From positions 1-25,310 of IMG/VR virus record IMGVR_UViG_3300037247_000291: a DNA stretch of 25,310 nucleotides, one strand, 5' to 3'. This document shows positions 1 through 24,605 of this stretch, piece by piece. This DNA is from a virus. The position numbers and the translations under genes are program-made. The first letter of the stretch is position 1, and the number at the start of each line of letters is the position of its first letter. The notes below the pieces were generated by a model. The model did no database searches. It was not told the DNA's origin and saw only the letters and a list, made by a program, of their open reading frames with translations.

Positions 1-1347
1 CCACCGCTTGATGAGGAAGTTGAGGAAGCCGATCATCATGTTCACGCCGCCCTTGACGATCTTCGTGGTCGACGTGATCACTCGGTCCGTGATCTTCTCG
101 ATCGACTCCCACACGGCGCGCCAATTGTCCTTGATGAACAGGATCGCCTTGATGAGCGGCCCCCCGGGGAGAAGCCAAGCCCACTTCGACCGGAAGAGCC
201 CCAGGACGAAGTCGCTCACCCGCCCGAACACTTCCTTGATGGTCTCCCAATTCTTCCAGACGAGAATTCCCACCGCGACCAATGCGGCGACGGCAATGAC
301 GGCGAGTCCCACCGGTCCCGTTATCGCCAGCCATGCCGCCCTCGCTGCCACGCCGGCGGCCGTGAACGCGCCGGCCGCGACTCCTGATGCTGTCGACATG
401 AGACCGAAGGCTCCGCTCGCGATGCCGGCAGCCGGCCCGGCGGCGATCAGGATCGGAGCGAGGCCCGCGGCCTTTTGGATCAGGTCCGCATGGCCGAACA
501 CCAGCTCCCCGATCTGGTGTTGGAACTTCTGCAGCGGGGTGAACGACTCGGCCAGGATCGCCGCGTTGTCCTCGATCACCGTGCTCGAGCCGGCGATCTC
601 TGCCTTGTACTTGCCGAGCTGCTCGGTCGTGAGGCCGAGGATTTTGAGGGTCTCCTCGAGGGAGCCGCCCGACGAGACAACGGCCGCCTGGAACTCGCTC
701 TTGGCGGTCCGGCCGGCGAGGCCGAGCTCCCCCTCCATCGCCGCGATGAGGGCGGCCGTATCGTTGACGGAGAGCCCGAGCGCCTTGATATCAGGGGCGG
801 CCTTCTCGATGAAGCTCAGGAAGTCGCTCACGCTCATCGACGTCTGATCGGTGATGAAGCCGAACGCGGCGAGCGCCTCGCTCTCGTTGCCGACCTCGAT
901 CCCCACGGCCTTCAGCGCCACGCCGCTCTTCGCGAGAGCGGGACCTGCGGCTCCGGTCGCGTCGCCGACCATGTCCCAGAAATTCGCGTACTCCGTGAGG
1001 GCTTCCTTGCTCTCGATCCCGAGCTCGTTCCCCTGTTGCATGAGGGCGAGGACGTCCTCGAGGGGGAAGGTGACGTTCGACATCCCCTTGGCGAGATCCC
1101 GGACCTCGCTCTCCTGGATGCCCATCTGCCGAGAGAGGCGGCCGACCGCCTGGCTGTTCTCTTGCTGGCTTCGGCTGAGGGCCTCGATGCCGGCGGCGGC
1201 GGCACCGAGGGCGACGGTCGCTCCCTTCCAGTTGTCGCGGATGGCCTTGCCAGCCCTCGCGCCGGCGCCGCCGACACCCGACATCACCTTCGATGCTTCG
1301 TCTCGGGCCTTCAGAACGACTTGTAGGTCTACCAGTCCGGCCGGCAT
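1..1347 (-). CDS. Tape measure protein, N-terminal part (runs off window)
   Basis: The frame is open from an ATG at 1347 to the window edge, giving 449 residues without a stop. Its position directly after the tail chaperone pair, its Ala/Gly-rich helical composition and a long hydrophobic stretch at about residues 290-355 (AVIAVIAALVAVGILVW and preceding) are typical of siphovirus tape measure proteins. These set tail length and line the tail tube before DNA ejection. The start is 1 nt past the upstream frameshift-frame stop (TAG 1349-1351), so translation is probably coupled. The N-terminal segment PAGLVDLQVVLKARDEAS recurs almost unchanged at the C-terminus of the protein at 21815-22315, which is unexpected. 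The 3' end is not in the window, so full length is unknown. Confidence 0.88.
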   Translation of the reverse strand, partial: MPAGLVDLQVVLKARDEASKVMSGVGGAGARAGKAIRDNWKGATVALGAAAAGIEALSRSQQENSQAVGRLSRQMGIQESEVRDLAKGMSNVTFPLEDVLALMQQGNELGIESKEALTEYANFWDMVGDATGAAGPALAKSGVALKAVGIEVGNESEALAAFGFITDQTSMSVSDFLSFIEKAAPDIKALGLSVNDTAALIAAMEGELGLAGRTAKSEFQAAVVSSGGSLEETLKILGLTTEQLGKYKAEIAGSSTVIEDNAAILAESFTPLQKFQHQIGELVFGHADLIQKAAGLAPILIAAGPAAGIASGAFGLMSTASGVAAGAFTAAGVAARAAWLAITGPVGLAVIAVAALVAVGILVWKNWETIKEVFGRVSDFVLGLFRSKWAWLLPGGPLIKAILFIKDNWRAVWESIEKITDRVITSTTKIVKGGVNMMIGFLNFLIKRW

Positions 1348-18077: not shown

Positions 18078-19685
18078 TCATCCCACCACCAGCGCCGGCC
18101 CCGGGTACACCCGGTCGTCGTCCTCGTGACGCATCGCCCGCTCGATCGCGATCACCAGCGCCACGATCCCGTCGATCCGCTCCGTGCTCTTGTCCTTCGC
18201 CGGTTTGATATTCCCCGCGGCGTCCGTCGAAATCGCCGTATTCGCCGCCATCCACTTCAGGATCGGATTCCCCCGGTGGGCGAGCTTGCGCTGAAGCACG
18301 AGCCGCTCGACTTCCTTCGTCGGCGCGCTCAGCGTCGCGAACCCCTGCCGCACATTCACCAGCGTGAGACCGTCCTCCGTGAGCTGCTGCCCGAGCTGCG
18401 TCGCGTTCCACGGGTCGATCCCGATCTCCTTGATCGCGTGCCGCTCCGCCAGCTCATTTACCTCCCGCCGGATCACCGCGTAGTCAATCACATTTCCCTC
18501 GGTGGCGGTGATCAACCCCATCCGCACCCAGGCGTCATACGGCACCCGGTCCCGCCGTGACCGCTCCACAATCCGTTCCGCCGGCACCCAAAAGCGGGAG
18601 AGGACGTCGTACGACCCGTCGACGTCGGGAAACACCAGCAGGAACGCCGCGATATCCGTCGTCGACGCCAGATCCAGGCCGCCGAAACACCGCTGGCCAT
18701 GGAGAGTCTCGATCGGAGTCTCCATCGAGCAGGCGTTCCAGTCCTCCAGCGACAGCCACCGCGTCACCTGGGACGTCCAGATGTCGAGATGGAGCCGGAG
18801 GAACGTGTTCAGGAACCCGGCCGAGCGCCGCGCGTGCTCCGCTTCGTTCTGGAGGTACTCCAGCTTGACCGTCGCCCCGAGATTCGGATTCGCCTTCGCC
18901 CACACCCGAGGGTCCGTCCAGTCGTCGTCCGGCTCCGCGGCCGCGATGTACGCGAAGGTCGAGTCATCCTCGAGCGCCCCCTCTAGCACCGCCACCGCGT
19001 GATTGTGCTCCTCCAGGCCGATACTCTCCTGGCGCGCGACGCCCGCCGTCGTGATCGCGATCGTCATCGGCTGACGCCGGGCCCCCATCGACGTTTGCAT
19101 CACGTCCCACAGGCGCCGGTCCCGGTGCGCGTGGAGCTCGTCGACGATGTTGGCATGCGCGTTCAACCCGTCCAGCGTGTCCGAGTCCGCCCCCAACGGC
19201 TCGAACTTCGACCACGTCCGAGGATTGTTGATATTGTTCCGCAGCACCCGCACGTGCGACCGGAGCCTCGAGAGCTTCACCATCTCCGCCGCGTCCCCCC
19301 ACACGATCTTCGCCTGATCCTTTTTCGTGGCGGTGGAATAAACCTCGGCGCCCATCTCCCCGTCCGCGATCGTGAGATACAGACCGACTGCCGCGGCGAG
19401 AGTCGACTTCCCGTTCTTGCGCGGCAGCTCCACGTACGCGTGGCGATATCTTCGAGTCCCATCGGCTCGCCTCCACGCAAACAACGGCATGATGATATCG
19501 TCGAGCTGCCAGGGCGCCAGTCGGAACGGAGCGCCGGCCCACTCGCCCTTGTAGTGCCTCAGGAGCCCGATGAAATTCGCCACCCGCTCGCCCTCCGCCC
19601 GATCGTAATACAGCCCCCGCTCCTCGCCCCCCTCTTGATCCCGCCGCTCCCTCTCCCTCGCGAGCTCCACGTACCTCGAGGTCAT
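18078..19685 (-). CDS. terL: Terminase large subunit
   Basis: The ATG at 19685 overlaps the upstream methyltransferase stop (ATGA) and has AAAGGA eight bases upstream; 535 residues. The ATPase domain shows APWQLDDIIMPLF, Walker A ELPRKNGKST (about 86-95), YSTATKKDQAKIVWG, and Walker B ANIVDELHAH (Asp-Glu about 182-183). The nuclease domain shows CFGGLDLASTTDIAAF (Asp about 337), EIGIDPWNATQLGQQL (Asp about 423) and ERIDGIVALV (Asp about 504), the three acidic positions of TerL nucleases. It packages DNA into the prohead with the small subunit and portal. Length and motifs look intact. Confidence 0.95.
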   Translation of the reverse strand: MTSRYVELARERERRDQEGGEERGLYYDRAEGERVANFIGLLRHYKGEWAGAPFRLAPWQLDDIIMPLFAWRRADGTRRYRHAYVELPRKNGKSTLAAAVGLYLTIADGEMGAEVYSTATKKDQAKIVWGDAAEMVKLSRLRSHVRVLRNNINNPRTWSKFEPLGADSDTLDGLNAHANIVDELHAHRDRRLWDVMQTSMGARRQPMTIAITTAGVARQESIGLEEHNHAVAVLEGALEDDSTFAYIAAAEPDDDWTDPRVWAKANPNLGATVKLEYLQNEAEHARRSAGFLNTFLRLHLDIWTSQVTRWLSLEDWNACSMETPIETLHGQRCFGGLDLASTTDIAAFLLVFPDVDGSYDVLSRFWVPAERIVERSRRDRVPYDAWVRMGLITATEGNVIDYAVIRREVNELAERHAIKEIGIDPWNATQLGQQLTEDGLTLVNVRQGFATLSAPTKEVERLVLQRKLAHRGNPILKWMAANTAISTDAAGNIKPAKDKSTERIDGIVALVIAIERAMRHEDDDRVYPGPALVVG

Positions 19686-20725
19686 GCCGTCATCCTTTGC
19701 CAAAGCGTGCGGAAGGCGTAGGCTCCCTGCGCGGGCACGACCGCGTTGCCGAGCGCTCTAAGGCGGTGTCTCCTATCGGGAACCCCATTAGCCACTCGAC
19801 AAACAGCGGGTTCAAGCGCCGGCACATCGGCGAGCACTCGTGCCCAGGCTGCTCGATCGTCGGGGCCTGGCGGGAAGCCGTTGTTGGCAAGTCTGGACTC
19901 CTTCTCCTGGCCTCGGCCTCCGTGTAAGGGAAGATATCGCTCGCGGTTGGCGTCGGCCACTGTCGCGCCTGAGCGTCCAGGTAGGGCCTGCCCTGCCCGT
20001 CCCGCTGATTCGGCCCGCCCTTGTCGCTGCTCGCCTTCGGCGTGTCCCAGAGGGCCGCTTCGACATGCAACGGTGTCGCGAACGGCAACTCCCCGCGCTC
20101 CGTCCGTTCCTTCTGGCGTTGCTCCCAAACCTCCGGCGACGTCTGACCCCGCTCGAACCAACTCGCCGCTGGCGTAGGCCACTCGGACGCCTTCTCCCGC
20201 AGGTTCACGAAGCCGCCGTGGTGGTTGCTGTACGTGCTCGTGTTGCTGTCTGGCGTAGGCCAGGATGAAGAGGCGTTCGCGGCGGTGCGGTGCTCCGACT
20301 TCCGCAGCCGTAAAAGTGTCCCAGACCGCATCGTACCCGCCTTCGGCCAGGTCTCCGAGTATTCGGCCAAAGTACCCGTGAGCAAGGAGGCCTGGGACGT
20401 TTTCCAAGAAGACGTAGCAGGGTCCCAGCTCGCGAATGGCACGGTAGGTCTCGGGCCACATGTTTCGCTCGTCGTCCTCTCCTCAGTTCTGCCCGGCGAC
20501 GCTGAAGGGCTGACAGGGGAACCCGGAGCAGATGAGACCGACGCGCTCAACGCTCCGCCAGTCAATCTCTCGGATGTCCCCGTACCGTCTGACATCAGGC
20601 CAGTGCCGCTCCAGAACCTTCCTGCAAAACTCATCGTTCTCGACTTGCCACGCTGGGCTCAATCCACGGGCTTCGACGGCGCGATCAAGACCGCCTATGC
20701 CCGAGAAGAGGGAGCCGAATCGCAA
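19682..20725 (-). pseudogene. C5-cytosine DNA methyltransferase interrupted by in-frame TGA
   Basis: A TTG start at 20725 leads into MRFGSLFSGIGGLDRAVEAR (motif I) and ICSGFPCQPFSVAGQN (motif IV, catalytic Cys). A TGA then occurs at 20483-20485. The same frame goes on as GEDDERNMWPETYRAIREL, with FLENVPGLL (motif VI), GAPHRRERLFILA (motif VIII) and RLRALGNAVVP (motif X) to TGA at 19682. No frameshift is needed: 347 codons with one stop. The codon could come from CGA (Arg) by one C-to-T change. The family methylates cytosine at carbon 5. It may be a dead gene, a read-through gene, a sequence error or two fragments that reassemble. Its last codons overlap the TerL start. Confidence 0.85.
19690..20634 (-). 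other. Long overlapping reading frame with WPTP repeats (314 codons)
   Basis: A frame shifted against the methyltransferase frame is open for 314 codons from ATG 20634 to 19690, across the methyltransferase TGA. It has four W(P/D)TP-type segments (SSWPTPDSN, SEWPTPAAS, ALWDTPKAS, RQWPTPTAS), a block SWKTSQASLLTG with EYSETWPKAGTMRSG, and LNPLFVEWLMGFPIGDTALE near the end. I recall similar WPTP-containing phage proteins with an 'LNP..VEWLMGFP.G' ending, so this may be a real gene. It may also be the shadow of the methyltransferase's own repeated Val/Leu-Ala-Asp/Tyr-Ala segments. No clear ribosome site decides. Confidence 0.45.
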
Positions 20726-20981: not shown

Positions 20982-21818
20982 TCACCGCGTGACGGCCATC
21001 AGATCGATAGATTTACGCCTGAGCGGCTTGTTGTCGGGGCCTTTCACGTACAAGGGCACTAAGACCGGCCGGTGCGTTTGCTCCTTCGGATACCATTGGT
21101 TCCTCCAATGTGGCCGCACCAGCCACCGACAGGACCAATCGACCGCCTGCTCTCCTCGCGCATCATCTTTCGGCTTCTCGCGGGCACGGAGTCTCACAAC
21201 CCGCACAAGCGGGTCGGATGCGACCGGCGCCCTTGCCATCCGCCGCTGCGAAGCGCGAGGCAGTCGCACTGGCGCCAACGCCGGTATCTTCTGTCGAATG
21301 AAGGCAAAGAAAGCGAACATGAGCCGGGTTGCATCGCGGTCGTCAAAGACGGCCTCTCTGTCTGACACACACTCATCAAACATCCAGAAAGTTGACCACC
21401 GAATGTCCAGGGGGTTGCCACCGAACCCCTCAAGCTCCAGCGCCGGGTCTCCAGTATCAGAAAAGCGCACCTCAGACCACAACAATGCGCGCATTTCCAG
21501 CGGTCCGAACGGCTCCTCCAGGTACATCAGCCCGCTCGTATCAACCGGGCGGATGTCCTCTAATGGAATCTCCCTCGGCACCGTCTCCGCCGCATCCCGC
21601 AGAACCCTGCATACGTCCCGACTTACGAAATAAGGCACAGCATGCGTCAACCCGTCGATGATATCGAGACGCCACTCCGATGGCTTTTGAAAAGGTGCCT
21701 CTTTCCTACCGTGGAGGTGGCGTCTCGCAATCCCTTCGAGGGTTCCCACCGATCGTGACGCGCTCCAATCTTCAAGCGCATGCATCTGCCACTCTAGTGC
21801 TTGGTACTCCGCAGTCAC
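20982..21818 (-). CDS. Unknown protein with C-terminal W-HWR-QWYP motif (278 aa)
   Basis: A GTG start overlaps the upstream stop (GTGA). The first ~180 residues contain EMRALLWSEVRFSDTGDPAL and FDDRDATRLMFAFFAFIRQK. The C-terminal ~60 residues contain VDWSCRWLVRPHWRNQWYPK, THRPVLVPLYVKGPDNKPL and a final basic strand. A similar 'W.VR.HWR.QW.P...H......VKGP...PL' block occurs, from memory, in phage and plasmid proteins of actinobacteria, function unknown. Base composition is less GC-rich than the terminase genes around it, which suggests a separate acquisition. Confidence 0.7.
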   Translation of the reverse strand: MTAEYQALEWQMHALEDWSASRSVGTLEGIARRHLHGRKEAPFQKPSEWRLDIIDGLTHAVPYFVSRDVCRVLRDAAETVPREIPLEDIRPVDTSGLMYLEEPFGPLEMRALLWSEVRFSDTGDPALELEGFGGNPLDIRWSTFWMFDECVSDREAVFDDRDATRLMFAFFAFIRQKIPALAPVRLPRASQRRMARAPVASDPLVRVVRLRAREKPKDDARGEQAVDWSCRWLVRPHWRNQWYPKEQTHRPVLVPLYVKGPDNKPLRRKSIDLMAVTR

Positions 21819-22315
21819 GGCACGTCTCCCAAATCTTCATCCTCTGCCATTTCTACCAGGCGCGATGCTTCATCCTTCGCGTTGAGGACGATCTGTAGAT
21901 CAACGAGCCCAGCCGGCTTGCCACTTGACCTCGCCCGCGACGCCGCAGTCATCCCGAACCGCGCCAGCGATTTGCGTAGCAAGCACAGGGCGCGATTGGC
22001 CATCGAGACGTAAGGGCTCGGCAAGACCATTCCGTTCGGCGTCGCGATCAGCGGATTTTTCTTGGCCTCCCGTGAATAGAGGACCCACCGCTCGTAGGTG
22101 GCGCAGTACATATGAAACGCCGTGAGGTCCGTGTTCGTCAGGAGCCCGCGCCTCCTCAACGCCGGCCCCAGCCGGCGCCACTCCTTCGCGCCGACTTCCC
22201 CCAGGTCATCCGGCGGCGACGGGATGCGCTGCCCGCACAGCTTGTAGACCAAGTCCTTGCCCAGTCGATACCACTCCGCAAACTTCTTCACCGTCAACCA
22301 CTCTCGTTCAGCCAT
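21815..22315 (-). CDS. Chimeric HTH / P27-terminase-like protein (166 aa)
   Basis: ATG at 22315 is preceded by GGAGGAG four bases away, so it is well translated. Residues 6-28 (LTVKKFAEWYRLGKDLVYKL) resemble an excisionase/AlpA-type helix-turn-helix. Residues ~29-130 (RIPSPPDDLGEVGAKEWRRL, TAFHMYCATYERWV, FGMTAASRAR) match the P27 small terminase encoded just upstream at roughly 60 per cent identity by eye. Residues 134-151 (PAGLVDLQIVLNAKDEAS) match the N-terminus of the tape measure protein at 15 of 18 positions. It looks assembled from three sources. It might act as an alternative DNA-recognition small terminase or be inactive. Confidence 0.75.
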   Translation of the reverse strand: MAEREWLTVKKFAEWYRLGKDLVYKLCGQRIPSPPDDLGEVGAKEWRRLGPALRRRGLLTNTDLTAFHMYCATYERWVLYSREAKKNPLIATPNGMVLPSPYVSMANRALCLLRKSLARFGMTAASRARSSGKPAGLVDLQIVLNAKDEASRLVEMAEDEDLGDVP

Positions 22316-22335: not shown

Positions 22336-22812
22336 TCATTTCGCCCTGGTCCGGTATAGAAATTCGCTCAGCTCATCGTCCTGCCGATCACTTGGATCGA
22401 CCGCGACCCTCGACCGCGACGACGGGGTCATCCCGAAGTCCGAAAGCGATTGCTTCACCATGTAGTACAGCCGGTTTGCCAATGACGTGTACGGGCTATG
22501 CTGGAAATAGCCGCTCGGAGTCTGAATTATTGGATTCTCCCTCGCCTGCCGCTCAGCATCGACCCACCGCTCGTACGTGGCGCAGTACATATGGAACGCC
22601 GTCGTGTCCATCTCCGTGAGGAGCCCCAGCCGCACCAGCACCGGTCCCATTTTCCGCCACTCCGCCTTGCCGATCTCCCCCAGGTCATCCGGCGGCGAGG
22701 GGATGCGCTGTCGTCGCCGTGGCCGCGGCTCATTCTCGTTGATCGGCCGCCGGCCAGGATTACCCTCCAGGAGCCTCAGCCTCGTCGGCTTCGGCGGTCG
22801 CCCCATCGTCAT
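22336..22812 (-). CDS. terS: Terminase small subunit, P27 family
   Basis: The product starts MTMGRPPKPTRLRLLEGNPG and continues RRPINENEPRP, the N-terminal signature of P27-type small terminases (PF05119). The helical body contains RIPSPPDDLGEIGKAEWRKM, AFHMYCATYERWVDAERQAR and SDFGMTPSSRSRV. It recognises phage DNA and activates TerL for packaging. ATG at 22812 overlaps the methyltransferase stop (ATGA). The length (158) is normal for the family. TerL is ~3 kb downstream, separated by the chimeric paralogue, two unknown genes and the C5 methyltransferase, instead of adjacent. Confidence 0.92.
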   Translation of the reverse strand: MTMGRPPKPTRLRLLEGNPGRRPINENEPRPRRRQRIPSPPDDLGEIGKAEWRKMGPVLVRLGLLTEMDTTAFHMYCATYERWVDAERQARENPIIQTPSGYFQHSPYTSLANRLYYMVKQSLSDFGMTPSSRSRVAVDPSDRQDDELSEFLYRTRAK

Positions 22813-24605
22813 GGCACCAGCCCCATCGGAAGCGCCAACCCCTCGAGTCGCTTGGCCGCCAGCTCGAGATATTCCGCGCTCAGGTCGATGCCGATGCTGC
22901 GCCGTCCGAGCCGCTGTGCGACGTAGGCCACCGTGCCGGAGCCCGCGAACGGGTCCAGCACCGTAGCAGGTGTCGTCTCCTCATGGCCGCAGTCGCAGGT
23001 GGGGCGCCAGCCGGTTGTATCTTGTTTCTGAGGGGCAACCGCTGAGTTCGTTTTCCCCATGCGGAAAGCCGAGCCTTTCCCACCTTCACCATAGAACCGT
23101 TGAGTCTTGGCCCACTCGGTATATTCCTCTCGAACCTCCACCACGCGCTCCCACGGCCCGCCGCATTCGGGGCAGACGCCGCGCTCCGACGTCCCCGCCA
23201 GGATGCACGGCTCGACGAACTTCTCCGGGAACGTCGCGAAGTGGGCCTCCGGATAGGGCTCCGCCGCTATCTCCCACACCGAGCGCTTGTTGCGGCCACC
23301 GGAGCTTGTCCCTGCGCTCGTATTGTGGCCGAATGACTCCCATGTCGCGTGACCGTTAGGACGCCCCCGTTCTCTTACACTTTCATTCGGCTCCCGTATC
23401 GCGTCGGTGTCGTAGAAGTAGTTGCAAGTAGTGGGCCAGACTGATATGATTTGGCCATGCTGAAAGTCGAACTTGCATACCTCGCCGGAGTCTTGGACAG
23501 CGATGGTTCCTTCACCATCGGCGTAGATTCCTGGCGTGTTCGCAAGCTGAATCGAAGTCCGACCTACTATGAGCACGTTGCCTTGGCCCAGACGCAACCC
23601 GAAGCGTTGGAGCTTCTGCAAAAACTCTTTGGCGGAAAGATTGGAACTCAGAAGGCGCGAGGCGGCATTAGCCAACGCCCGATGCTCAGATGGCAGGCTA
23701 ACAATCGTATCGCTATCACTGTTGTCCGCGCTGTTCGCCCCTACCTCCGCATCAAGAAGCGGCAAGCGGATGTACTCTTGAAGTTGAGGGCAATCCGTGA
23801 GCGCGGACGCGAGGCGAATACAAAGCTCGTCCGCCCCAAGGTGCGCGTTTTGTCTGATGAGACTTTGGCTGAGATGAGCGGGTTGGTCAGAGAGATTCGC
23901 CAACTTAACGGTACGGCTCGACCTCTGTCCCTTAGCTAGCAGGAACACGTACTCGTGCGCCCTCGTGGGCCGGTCAGTGACGCTCTCCGGCATCGGGTTC
24001 GGCTTGCTCCACACGATGTCCGAGCGCAGCCACCAGCCGTCCGTCTGAAGCGCCAGCGCGACCCGGGCCGGCATCATGCACAGATCCTTGGGCTTCAGGC
24101 CACGAGGAATAGGGTGCTGCACATTGACGGCCGCCCTGTCTCTGCGGAAGGACGCCGCGCAGTGGGTTCCGGCCGCATAGGTGTCCCCCATGTTCAACCA
24201 GAGCGTCCCGTCCTTGCGCAGTGCCCGCCGGACCTCGCGGAACAGCTCGACGACGTGAGCGACGTAGAGGTCGATGGTCGGCTCCAGGCCGAGCGACCCG
24301 CGCCAGGCCCCGCAAACGCAGACAGCGTGGAGGATAGGCTCGTCGCGCCCATTCGCACCGGCGTTGGACGCCTGCTTCGGAGACTTGCCGCCATCGTTTG
24401 ACCGTCGTTGGTAGGACTCCTCGTCCCATTCATGCTCGTGGCCGTCGTCGCCGCCCCACACCAGCGGCTCCAAGCCGTAATCGCGAAGGCCCCAGTACGG
24501 CGGGCTCGTCACGACACAGTGGACGCTCTCCGCCGGCAGCCCCGCAAGCACCCGCCGAGCATCGCCCTCGAGGAGCTGGACCACGCCGTTCGTCCAGTCG
24601 CTCAT
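22809..24605 (-). CDS. Beta-class N4/N6 DNA methyltransferase with a ~169-codon insertion
   Basis: ATG at 24605 overlaps the upstream stop (ATGA); 598 residues. Motif IV TSPPYW is at 33-38, followed by WRGSLGLEPTIDLYVAHVV and LWLNMGDTYA; DPFAGSGTVAYVAQ (motif I) is at ~551. The N-terminal IV, C-terminal I order is the beta class. CPECGGPW and CDCGHEET look like zinc-binding pairs common in phage versions. HEYVFLLAK (ending ~225) should be followed shortly by YFYDTDAIRE (~396), but about 169 codons intervene, all open. That insert is a homing endonuclease gene on the other strand. Whether the long protein is active is unknown. Confidence 0.88.
   Translation of the reverse strand: MSDWTNGVVQLLEGDARRVLAGLPAESVHCVVTSPPYWGLRDYGLEPLVWGGDDGHEHEWDEESYQRRSNDGGKSPKQASNAGANGRDEPILHAVCVCGAWRGSLGLEPTIDLYVAHVVELFREVRRALRKDGTLWLNMGDTYAAGTHCAASFRRDRAAVNVQHPIPRGLKPKDLCMMPARVALALQTDGWWLRSDIVWSKPNPMPESVTDRPTRAHEYVFLLAKGQRSSRTVKLANLSDQPAHLSQSLIRQNAHLGADELCIRLASALTDCPQLQEYIRLPLLDAEVGANSADNSDSDTIVSLPSEHRALANAASRLLSSNLSAKEFLQKLQRFGLRLGQGNVLIVGRTSIQLANTPGIYADGEGTIAVQDSGEVCKFDFQHGQIISVWPTTCNYFYDTDAIREPNESVRERGRPNGHATWESFGHNTSAGTSSGGRNKRSVWEIAAEPYPEAHFATFPEKFVEPCILAGTSERGVCPECGGPWERVVEVREEYTEWAKTQRFYGEGGKGSAFRMGKTNSAVAPQKQDTTGWRPTCDCGHEETTPATVLDPFAGSGTVAYVAQRLGRRSIGIDLSAEYLELAAKRLEGLALPMGLVP
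23422..23450 (+). promoter_or_regulatory. Promoter of the homing endonuclease gene (leaderless)
   Basis: TTGCAA (23422-23427), 17-bp spacer, TATGAT (23445-23450) with TGA before it (extended -10). The expected start of RNA is about 23457, the A of the ATG start codon. No ribosome site is visible, which suits a leaderless message. The -35 overlaps the methyltransferase-derived sequence near the insertion junction. Confidence 0.55.
23424..23930. mobile_element. Homing endonuclease insertion inside the methyltransferase gene
   Basis: The segment lies between conserved methyltransferase blocks LLAK and NYFYD and is about 507 bp long, a multiple of three. It consists of the LAGLIDADG gene and ~30 bp ahead of it, leaving no room for a group I intron core. 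No intein splice-site residues (Cys/Ser start with His-Asn end) are seen in the sense frame. It is clearly less GC-rich than both flanks. The exact junctions cannot be set without an uninterrupted homologue. Confidence 0.7.
23457..23939 (+). CDS. LAGLIDADG homing endonuclease (160 aa)
   Basis: This is the only convincing plus-strand gene. From ATG 23457: MLKVELAYLAGVLDSDGSFT, with the LAGLIDADG motif at residues 9-17 (LAGVLDSDG; the second Asp is the metal ligand). RSPTYYEHVALAQTQPEALE, LLQKLFGGKIGTQKA and RPYLRIKKRQADVLLKLRAI follow the usual single-motif pattern, so the enzyme should work as a homodimer. The start TTG at 23451 adds two residues. Codons align exactly with those of the methyltransferase on the other strand, and TTA, CTA and TCA are never used, so the antisense frame stays open. 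Its TAG stop lies within the codon for Leu of LLAK on the other strand. Confidence 0.9.
   Translation: MLKVELAYLAGVLDSDGSFTIGVDSWRVRKLNRSPTYYEHVALAQTQPEALELLQKLFGGKIGTQKARGGISQRPMLRWQANNRIAITVVRAVRPYLRIKKRQADVLLKLRAIRERGREANTKLVRPKVRVLSDETLAEMSGLVREIRQLNGTARPLSLS

Follow-up and report, generated by a model that had tools for sequence, protein, structure and literature searches.

The minus strand of the window, a 25.3-kb linear virus record, encodes head proteins that include terminase and portal. A DNA methyltransferase (MTase) gene on the same strand harbors a homing endonuclease gene (HEG) of the LAGLIDADG type, encoded antisense to it. Coordinates and frames confirmed what an initial, sequence-only reading had noticed, namely that the endonuclease gene lies inside the MTase gene and that the codon boundaries of the two coincide. 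The locus consists of the following features:

22809..24605, minus strand: phage N4/N6 DNA MTase gene, 598 codons, frame unbroken across the insert (PF01555, E = 2.3e-40)
23922..24605, minus strand: N-terminal part of the MTase, residues 1–228, with the catalytic TSPPY motif (homologue alignments)
22809..23420, minus strand: C-terminal part of the MTase, residues 396–598, with the DPFAGSGT SAM-binding motif (homologue alignments)
23421..23921, no strand assigned: insert of 501 bp, 167 MTase codons, residues 229–395, a unit missing from homologues (BLAST pieces and the empty-site DNA of L005)
23422..23450, plus strand: promoter-like site TTGCAA-17-TATGAT with TG before the -10 box (1 found vs. 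0.2 expected in shuffles)
23457..23939, plus strand: LAGLIDADG HEG of the I-MsoI/I-CreI type, 160 aa, codon-aligned with the antisense MTase frame
23481..23507, plus strand: LAGLIDADG motif, LAGVLDSDG in the translation
23922..23939, plus strand: last five HEG codons and TAG stop, opposite MTase codons 223–228 (LAKGQR), which are conserved MTase sequence

The ends of the insert were fixed by comparison with insert-free MTases, as the sequence-only reading had proposed. BLAST pieces of the closest homologues stop at window residue 228 and restart at residue 396 while being contiguous in the homologue, and the insertion point is the conserved MTase loop AKGQR|YFYD. In L005, for example, HEYVFLLAKSAR|YFYDADAIREP corresponds to HEYVFLLAKGQR-insert-YFYDTDAIREP in the window. 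On one flank of the insert, the window hardly differs from the insert-free DNA of L005; on the other, the two have diverged over ∼15 nt, a stretch that doubles as coding sequence for the endonuclease tail PLSLS and its stop. The interval of 23424–23939 originally given to the insert was thus revised to 23421–23921, position 23939 standing as the end of the HEG, and its length, put at about 169 residues, became 167 codons, still a multiple of three (expected by chance in about one third of cases). Only the MTase frame is stop-free among the six frames of the insert, the other five having 1 to 10 stops. None of the 80 viral MTase homologue loci fetched had an endonuclease insert at this loop, and a peptide-pattern search of IMG/VR for relatives of the window gene gave no close copy of the insertion, leaving one known copy. 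Four other MTases carry unrelated extra segments at the same loop (102 residues in L016 and in L017, 67 in L007, and 46 in L027); the loop therefore tolerates extra sequence, and judged from these sequences it is plausible that it also tolerates the insert. No homologues of the MTase-frame peptide of the insert were found in phage records, and with the same-site segments being unrelated, MTases naturally carrying this extra domain, which would have spoken against an invasion, did not turn up.

The HEG starts with an ATG at 23457 and ends with a TAG at 23937–23939, the latter being the complement of a CTA codon for Leu in the MTase. As its tail and stop are encoded opposite MTase codons, the endonuclease ends inside the host gene. 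The promoter-like site occupies the first 36 bp of the insert, and because the ATG starts 7 bases past the -10 box, the endonuclease mRNA from this site is likely leaderless. The Pfam match of the HEG is weak on its own (E = 0.0034), and its family profile matches I-MsoI with an E value of 7.6e-26. The AlphaFold model of the 160-aa protein has a pLDDT of 91.6, and its nearest solved folds are I-MsoI and I-CreI (TM about 0.7). The protein has the features of this type: a single LAGLIDADG motif (within LAYLAGVLDSDG) with its acidic residue, a conserved Lys (K100), and, in the predicted model, the alpha-beta-beta-alpha-beta-beta-alpha fold. I-MsoI and I-CreI differ from the window gene in being encoded in group I introns of organelle rRNA genes. 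Relatives of the HEG occur in Caulobacter, Stenotrophomonas, and Mycobacterium phages.

The MTase appears complete around the insert. Every column invariant across 17 aligned homologues is retained on both flanks, and the TSPPY catalytic motif, the FxGxG SAM motif, and an intact frame place the protein in PF01555. In the AlphaFold model of the whole 598-aa protein, proposed earlier as a way to see whether the insert forms a loop, the core is confident and the insert is of low confidence, with no fold predicted for it. The suggestion that the invaded gene is essential found no support, as phage MTases are usually dispensable.

The HEG contains 22 Leu codons (about 20 by the earlier estimate) and 9 Ser codons, and none of its 160 codons is TTA, CTA, or TCA, the three that would place a stop in the MTase frame. 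How unexpected this is depends on the null model. With the codon usage of the other genes of the phage, 2.2 such codons are expected and the probability of observing none is 0.10–0.13; with the gene's own third-position composition, 5.4–6.4 are expected and the probability falls to 0.0005–0.0025. Taken alone, the locus is suggestive of openness beyond chance but not decisive, and the general question of antisense stop avoidance was decided by the relatives of the gene.

We collected 177 distinct HEG relatives by alignment-based scans of viral and bacterial contigs and compared their TTA, CTA, and TCA counts with those expected under a codon-composition model. By this measure the relatives split into two sharply distinct classes. 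Of 84 AT-rich relatives encoded opposite an interrupted phage major capsid gene, 65 are free of in-frame antisense stops, compared with 0.03 expected, although these counts are of related sequences and not of independent events, the number of independent origins being uncertain. All 84 together have 120 of the three codons vs. 650 expected, whereas the 12 sense-oriented relatives have 81 vs. 95 expected and include no stop-free gene. When the antisense genes with at most one such codon were pooled, the counts were 3/237 for TTA, 0/713 for CTA, and 1/303 for TCA, in total 4 vs. 520 expected. Other A-ending codons occur at near-normal frequency in the same genes, and neighboring genes are near-normal for the three codons, which rules out their genome-wide avoidance. 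With a gap this large, chance is an unlikely explanation, and the rarity of antisense stops that the sequence-only reading proposed to look for in related endonucleases is seen in this class.

Antisense orientation is not the sole cause of the pattern, as stops are present in normal numbers in 14 genes that are likewise antisense at this capsid gene. Open and closed states alternate on the tree with about seven changes, and L264, with no antisense stop, is the sister of L265, with 11, indicating that openness is gained or lost quickly. Within the open class, which includes L147, L108, L148, L104, L264, and about 60 other loci, the pN/pS of the endonuclease is 0.27 (0.31 in the closed class; synonymous sites are near saturation), compared with 1.14 for the antisense peptide. 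This rules out that the antisense frame of the capsid class encodes a functional protein; the constrained protein is therefore the endonuclease, and the other strand need only be open. A Pfam search of the other long antisense ORFs matched only the capsid exon in L147, and weakly. In two further AT-rich phages we noted longer LAGLIDADG ORFs of ∼310–370 codons (L131, 692–1966, minus strand; L164, 1405–2322, minus strand), opposite which the antisense frame is open for 425 and 306 codons, respectively.

The open frames of the capsid class extend a median of 51 codons beyond the endonuclease start, vs. 3–5 codons for the other two frames. Near their upstream end, 46 of the 65 open genes have a Shine–Dalgarno sequence (a match of four or more bases) and an ATG; the same combination was found in 5/65 genes for each of the other frames, in 0/14 closed antisense genes, and in 3/50 other closed genes. 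Selection for a stop-free opposite strand thus exists in this family where that strand carries a translation start. The purpose proposed for the open frame by the sequence-only reading, read-through of the host protein, does not hold in the capsid class: The phase of the open frame relative to capsid exon 1 and exon 2 is close to random, ruling out capsid-exon read-through as its cause, and the frame has a Shine–Dalgarno sequence and start codon of its own. Capsid gene homologues without the interruption exist and the inserts look intron-like, but Rfam does not recognize them (no intron match at the gathering threshold in 40 loci and none at E ≤ 2 in four loci), and we claim no class for them.

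On the tree, the window HEG clusters with GC-rich relatives, and the open capsid class forms a different, AT-rich branch. The closest relative, L089, lies between terminase genes in antisense orientation and contains two antisense stops. Among the nearest relatives the number ranges from 0 to 2, with one each in L079 and L096, and a sense-oriented Brucella gene (L169) has four. In L079, L090, and L096, the endonuclease gene is likewise antisense to an MTase of this family and located at its catalytic TSPPY motif, and the insertion adjoins a duplicated MTase N terminus and a frame-breaking 4-bp TGAC insertion. Together with the window, these loci indicate that MTase genes are repeatedly targeted by this branch, and their broken frames that an invasion of an MTase needs no open frame. 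The 4-bp insertion is found at TSPPY|WGL in four MTases (L079, 3079–3095, plus strand; L090, minus strand; L096, minus strand; L035, 2931–2950, plus strand), yields TAY-TGA-C and a +1 shift, and in three of the four is accompanied by the antisense LAGLIDADG gene and a second MTase N terminus immediately upstream. Possible readings of it are a scar left by a staggered cut of 4 nt, an allele resistant to cutting, or a site of frameshifting.

The anatomy, the junctions, the open frame, the promoter-like site, and the endonuclease fold were all obtained by computation, and from these we infer the history and the products of the locus. In the explanation that we favor, by a slight measure, a self-contained 501-bp cassette consisting of a promoter and a LAGLIDADG gene homed into the conserved MTase loop, oriented antisense with its codons in register, and has stayed unspliced. 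As the insert lacks TTA, CTA, and TCA and is a multiple of three, the MTase would be translated across it into a 598-residue protein that probably retains some activity and in which the 167 residues of the insert form an unstructured loop. The endonuclease would be made from its own promoter and cut insert-free alleles. The exact in-frame insertion where close homologues are contiguous, the intact 598-codon frame with all invariant residues, the intact endonuclease with a confident fold and its own promoter-like site, and the lack of an intron or intein all agree with this explanation. So do the 46–102 extra residues at the same loop in other MTases, the confident core and low-confidence insert of the MTase model, the invasion of related MTases by related antisense genes, and the family-wide avoidance of opposite-strand stops (65/84; 4 vs. 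520; pN/pS 1.14 vs. 0.27). Against it count the probability of 0.10–0.13 by phage codon usage, the nearest relatives not being strictly stop-free, the broken MTase frames of L079, L090, and L096, and the single copy found. Openness of the opposite frame far beyond chance is supported by the antisense capsid-class relatives and not by the window locus itself; the pressure seen in the relatives may act on the window copy too, or its frame may be open by luck.

A tentative alternative, to which we give clearly less weight, is that the HEG inactivated a dispensable phage MTase and that the open frame is luck, aided by GC-rich codon usage. A stop-free gene is not exceptional under phage codon usage, related insertions at the TSPPY motif do break the MTase frame, and the insert has no predicted fold. 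The retention of the frame and of all invariant residues on both sides argues against this, although a recent insertion would account for it; inactivation also fits poorly with the result of the own-composition null and with a loop that naturally takes extra sequence in homologues. It is improbable that the HEG derives from, or resembles, antisense endonucleases opposite a translated frame and arrived stop-free, the MTase being merely lucky. The family does contain a large stop-free class, but that class is the AT-rich branch, strict openness is not the rule among the nearest relatives of the window gene or in the Brucella gene, and openness changes quickly, as between L264 and L265.

Removal of the insert by a small intron or an unusual intein is slightly less probable still. 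The locus resembles introns and inteins in its conserved insertion site and its mobile endonuclease, but 465 of the 501 bp are endonuclease codons and the remaining ∼36 bp are taken by the promoter-like site, leaving no space for a group I or II ribozyme core, and an Rfam search of the insert gave no intron family up to E = 5. Like inteins, the insert is an in-frame homing endonuclease insertion at a conserved protein site. Unlike them, it has its endonuclease on the other strand, and no Hint or intein domain was found in the insert or in its MTase-frame peptide, which begins with S and ends with Cys-Asn followed by Tyr, not the Cys/Ser start and His-Asn end followed by Cys/Ser/Thr of an intein. 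The Rfam and domain searches thus agree with the sequence-only reading, which had seen no intron core or intein splice residues. An assembly chimera, conceivable for a single metagenomic record, is highly improbable, as the insert joins a conserved site in frame at both of its ends and the HEG has its last codons and stop in common with the MTase.

HEGs are thought to avoid harm to the host through splicing or an intergenic location, and free-standing phage HEGs usually have the latter. The window HEG resembles the free-standing ones in lacking a splicing element and in its predicted own expression, but differs in lying inside a coding frame and in sharing its last codons with the host gene. 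A hidden endonuclease insertion with an open phage methylase frame is already published: The ShiLan domain comprises hidden out-of-frame HNH endonuclease insertions in mycobacteriophage DNA methylases (Arsenault et al. 2025, PMC11855218). In both systems an HEG occupies a conserved site of a phage methylase, neither an intron nor an intein is detectable, the methylase frame is stop-free, the insert is predicted to form a loop away from the core, and leaderless expression is proposed. The ShiLan endonuclease is an HNH enzyme on the same strand in a shifted frame, with a GTG start and many copies of patchy distribution; the window has a LAGLIDADG gene on the opposite strand in codon register, its own promoter-like site, a different MTase, and one copy. 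The window thus shares with ShiLan the endonuclease ORF within a methylase and the stop-free host frame, but not the same-strand HNH gene. We consider it somewhat better supported than not that the window insert is an antisense LAGLIDADG variant of such hidden endonuclease insertions, probably translated through by the MTase.

Antisense HEGs are known from eukaryotic nuclear rDNA group I introns, such as Dsq.L2066 of Didymium (PMC9548176). The system is like the window in having the endonuclease opposite the host transcript under its own promoter (a promoter-like site in the window), but it has a eukaryotic His-Cys box enzyme in a self-splicing intron of an rRNA gene, with no host reading frame to preserve. 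In the literature searched, subscription papers being outside the search, we found no report, those two precedents included, of an antisense codon-register HEG in a protein-coding frame or of opposite-strand stop avoidance, and the family-wide avoidance is likely, though not proven, to be novel.

The window locus suggests another way to spare the host, in which the gene is antisense and its codons introduce no stop into the host frame. The evidence from the family outweighs that from this one site: Many dozens of related genes avoid the three stop-complement codons and otherwise evolve as ordinary endonucleases. With evenly balanced confidence, we propose that antisense HEGs represent a distinct mode of parasitism in phages, in which selection keeps the codon-aligned opposite frame translatable, so that ribosomes can pass, and the resulting peptide is unconstrained. 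The mode would have two forms, one using the coding frame of the host, as in the MTase, and the other consisting of capsid-gene inserts with their own Shine–Dalgarno sequence and start. One may conjecture that the capsid form benefits from ribosomes covering the transcript, which could for instance protect it from Rho-dependent termination. Why the opposite strand of a selfish gene must be translatable, and whether the pass-through peptide is made, can now be tested.

Other genes of the window show irregularities of their own. The minus strand has two adjacent genes for small terminase subunits (21815–22315 and 22336–22812; both PF05119), and the C terminus of the first (PAGLVDLQIVLNAKDEASRL) resembles the N terminus of a tape-measure-like protein (1–1347, minus strand; MPAGLVDLQVVLKARDEASKV), as though one of these two genes had received a copied segment of the other. 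A C5-cytosine methyltransferase (19682–20725, minus strand) is split into two frames, 20483–20725 and 19682–20461, and a 314-codon ORF (19690–20634, minus strand) overlaps both pieces in another frame.
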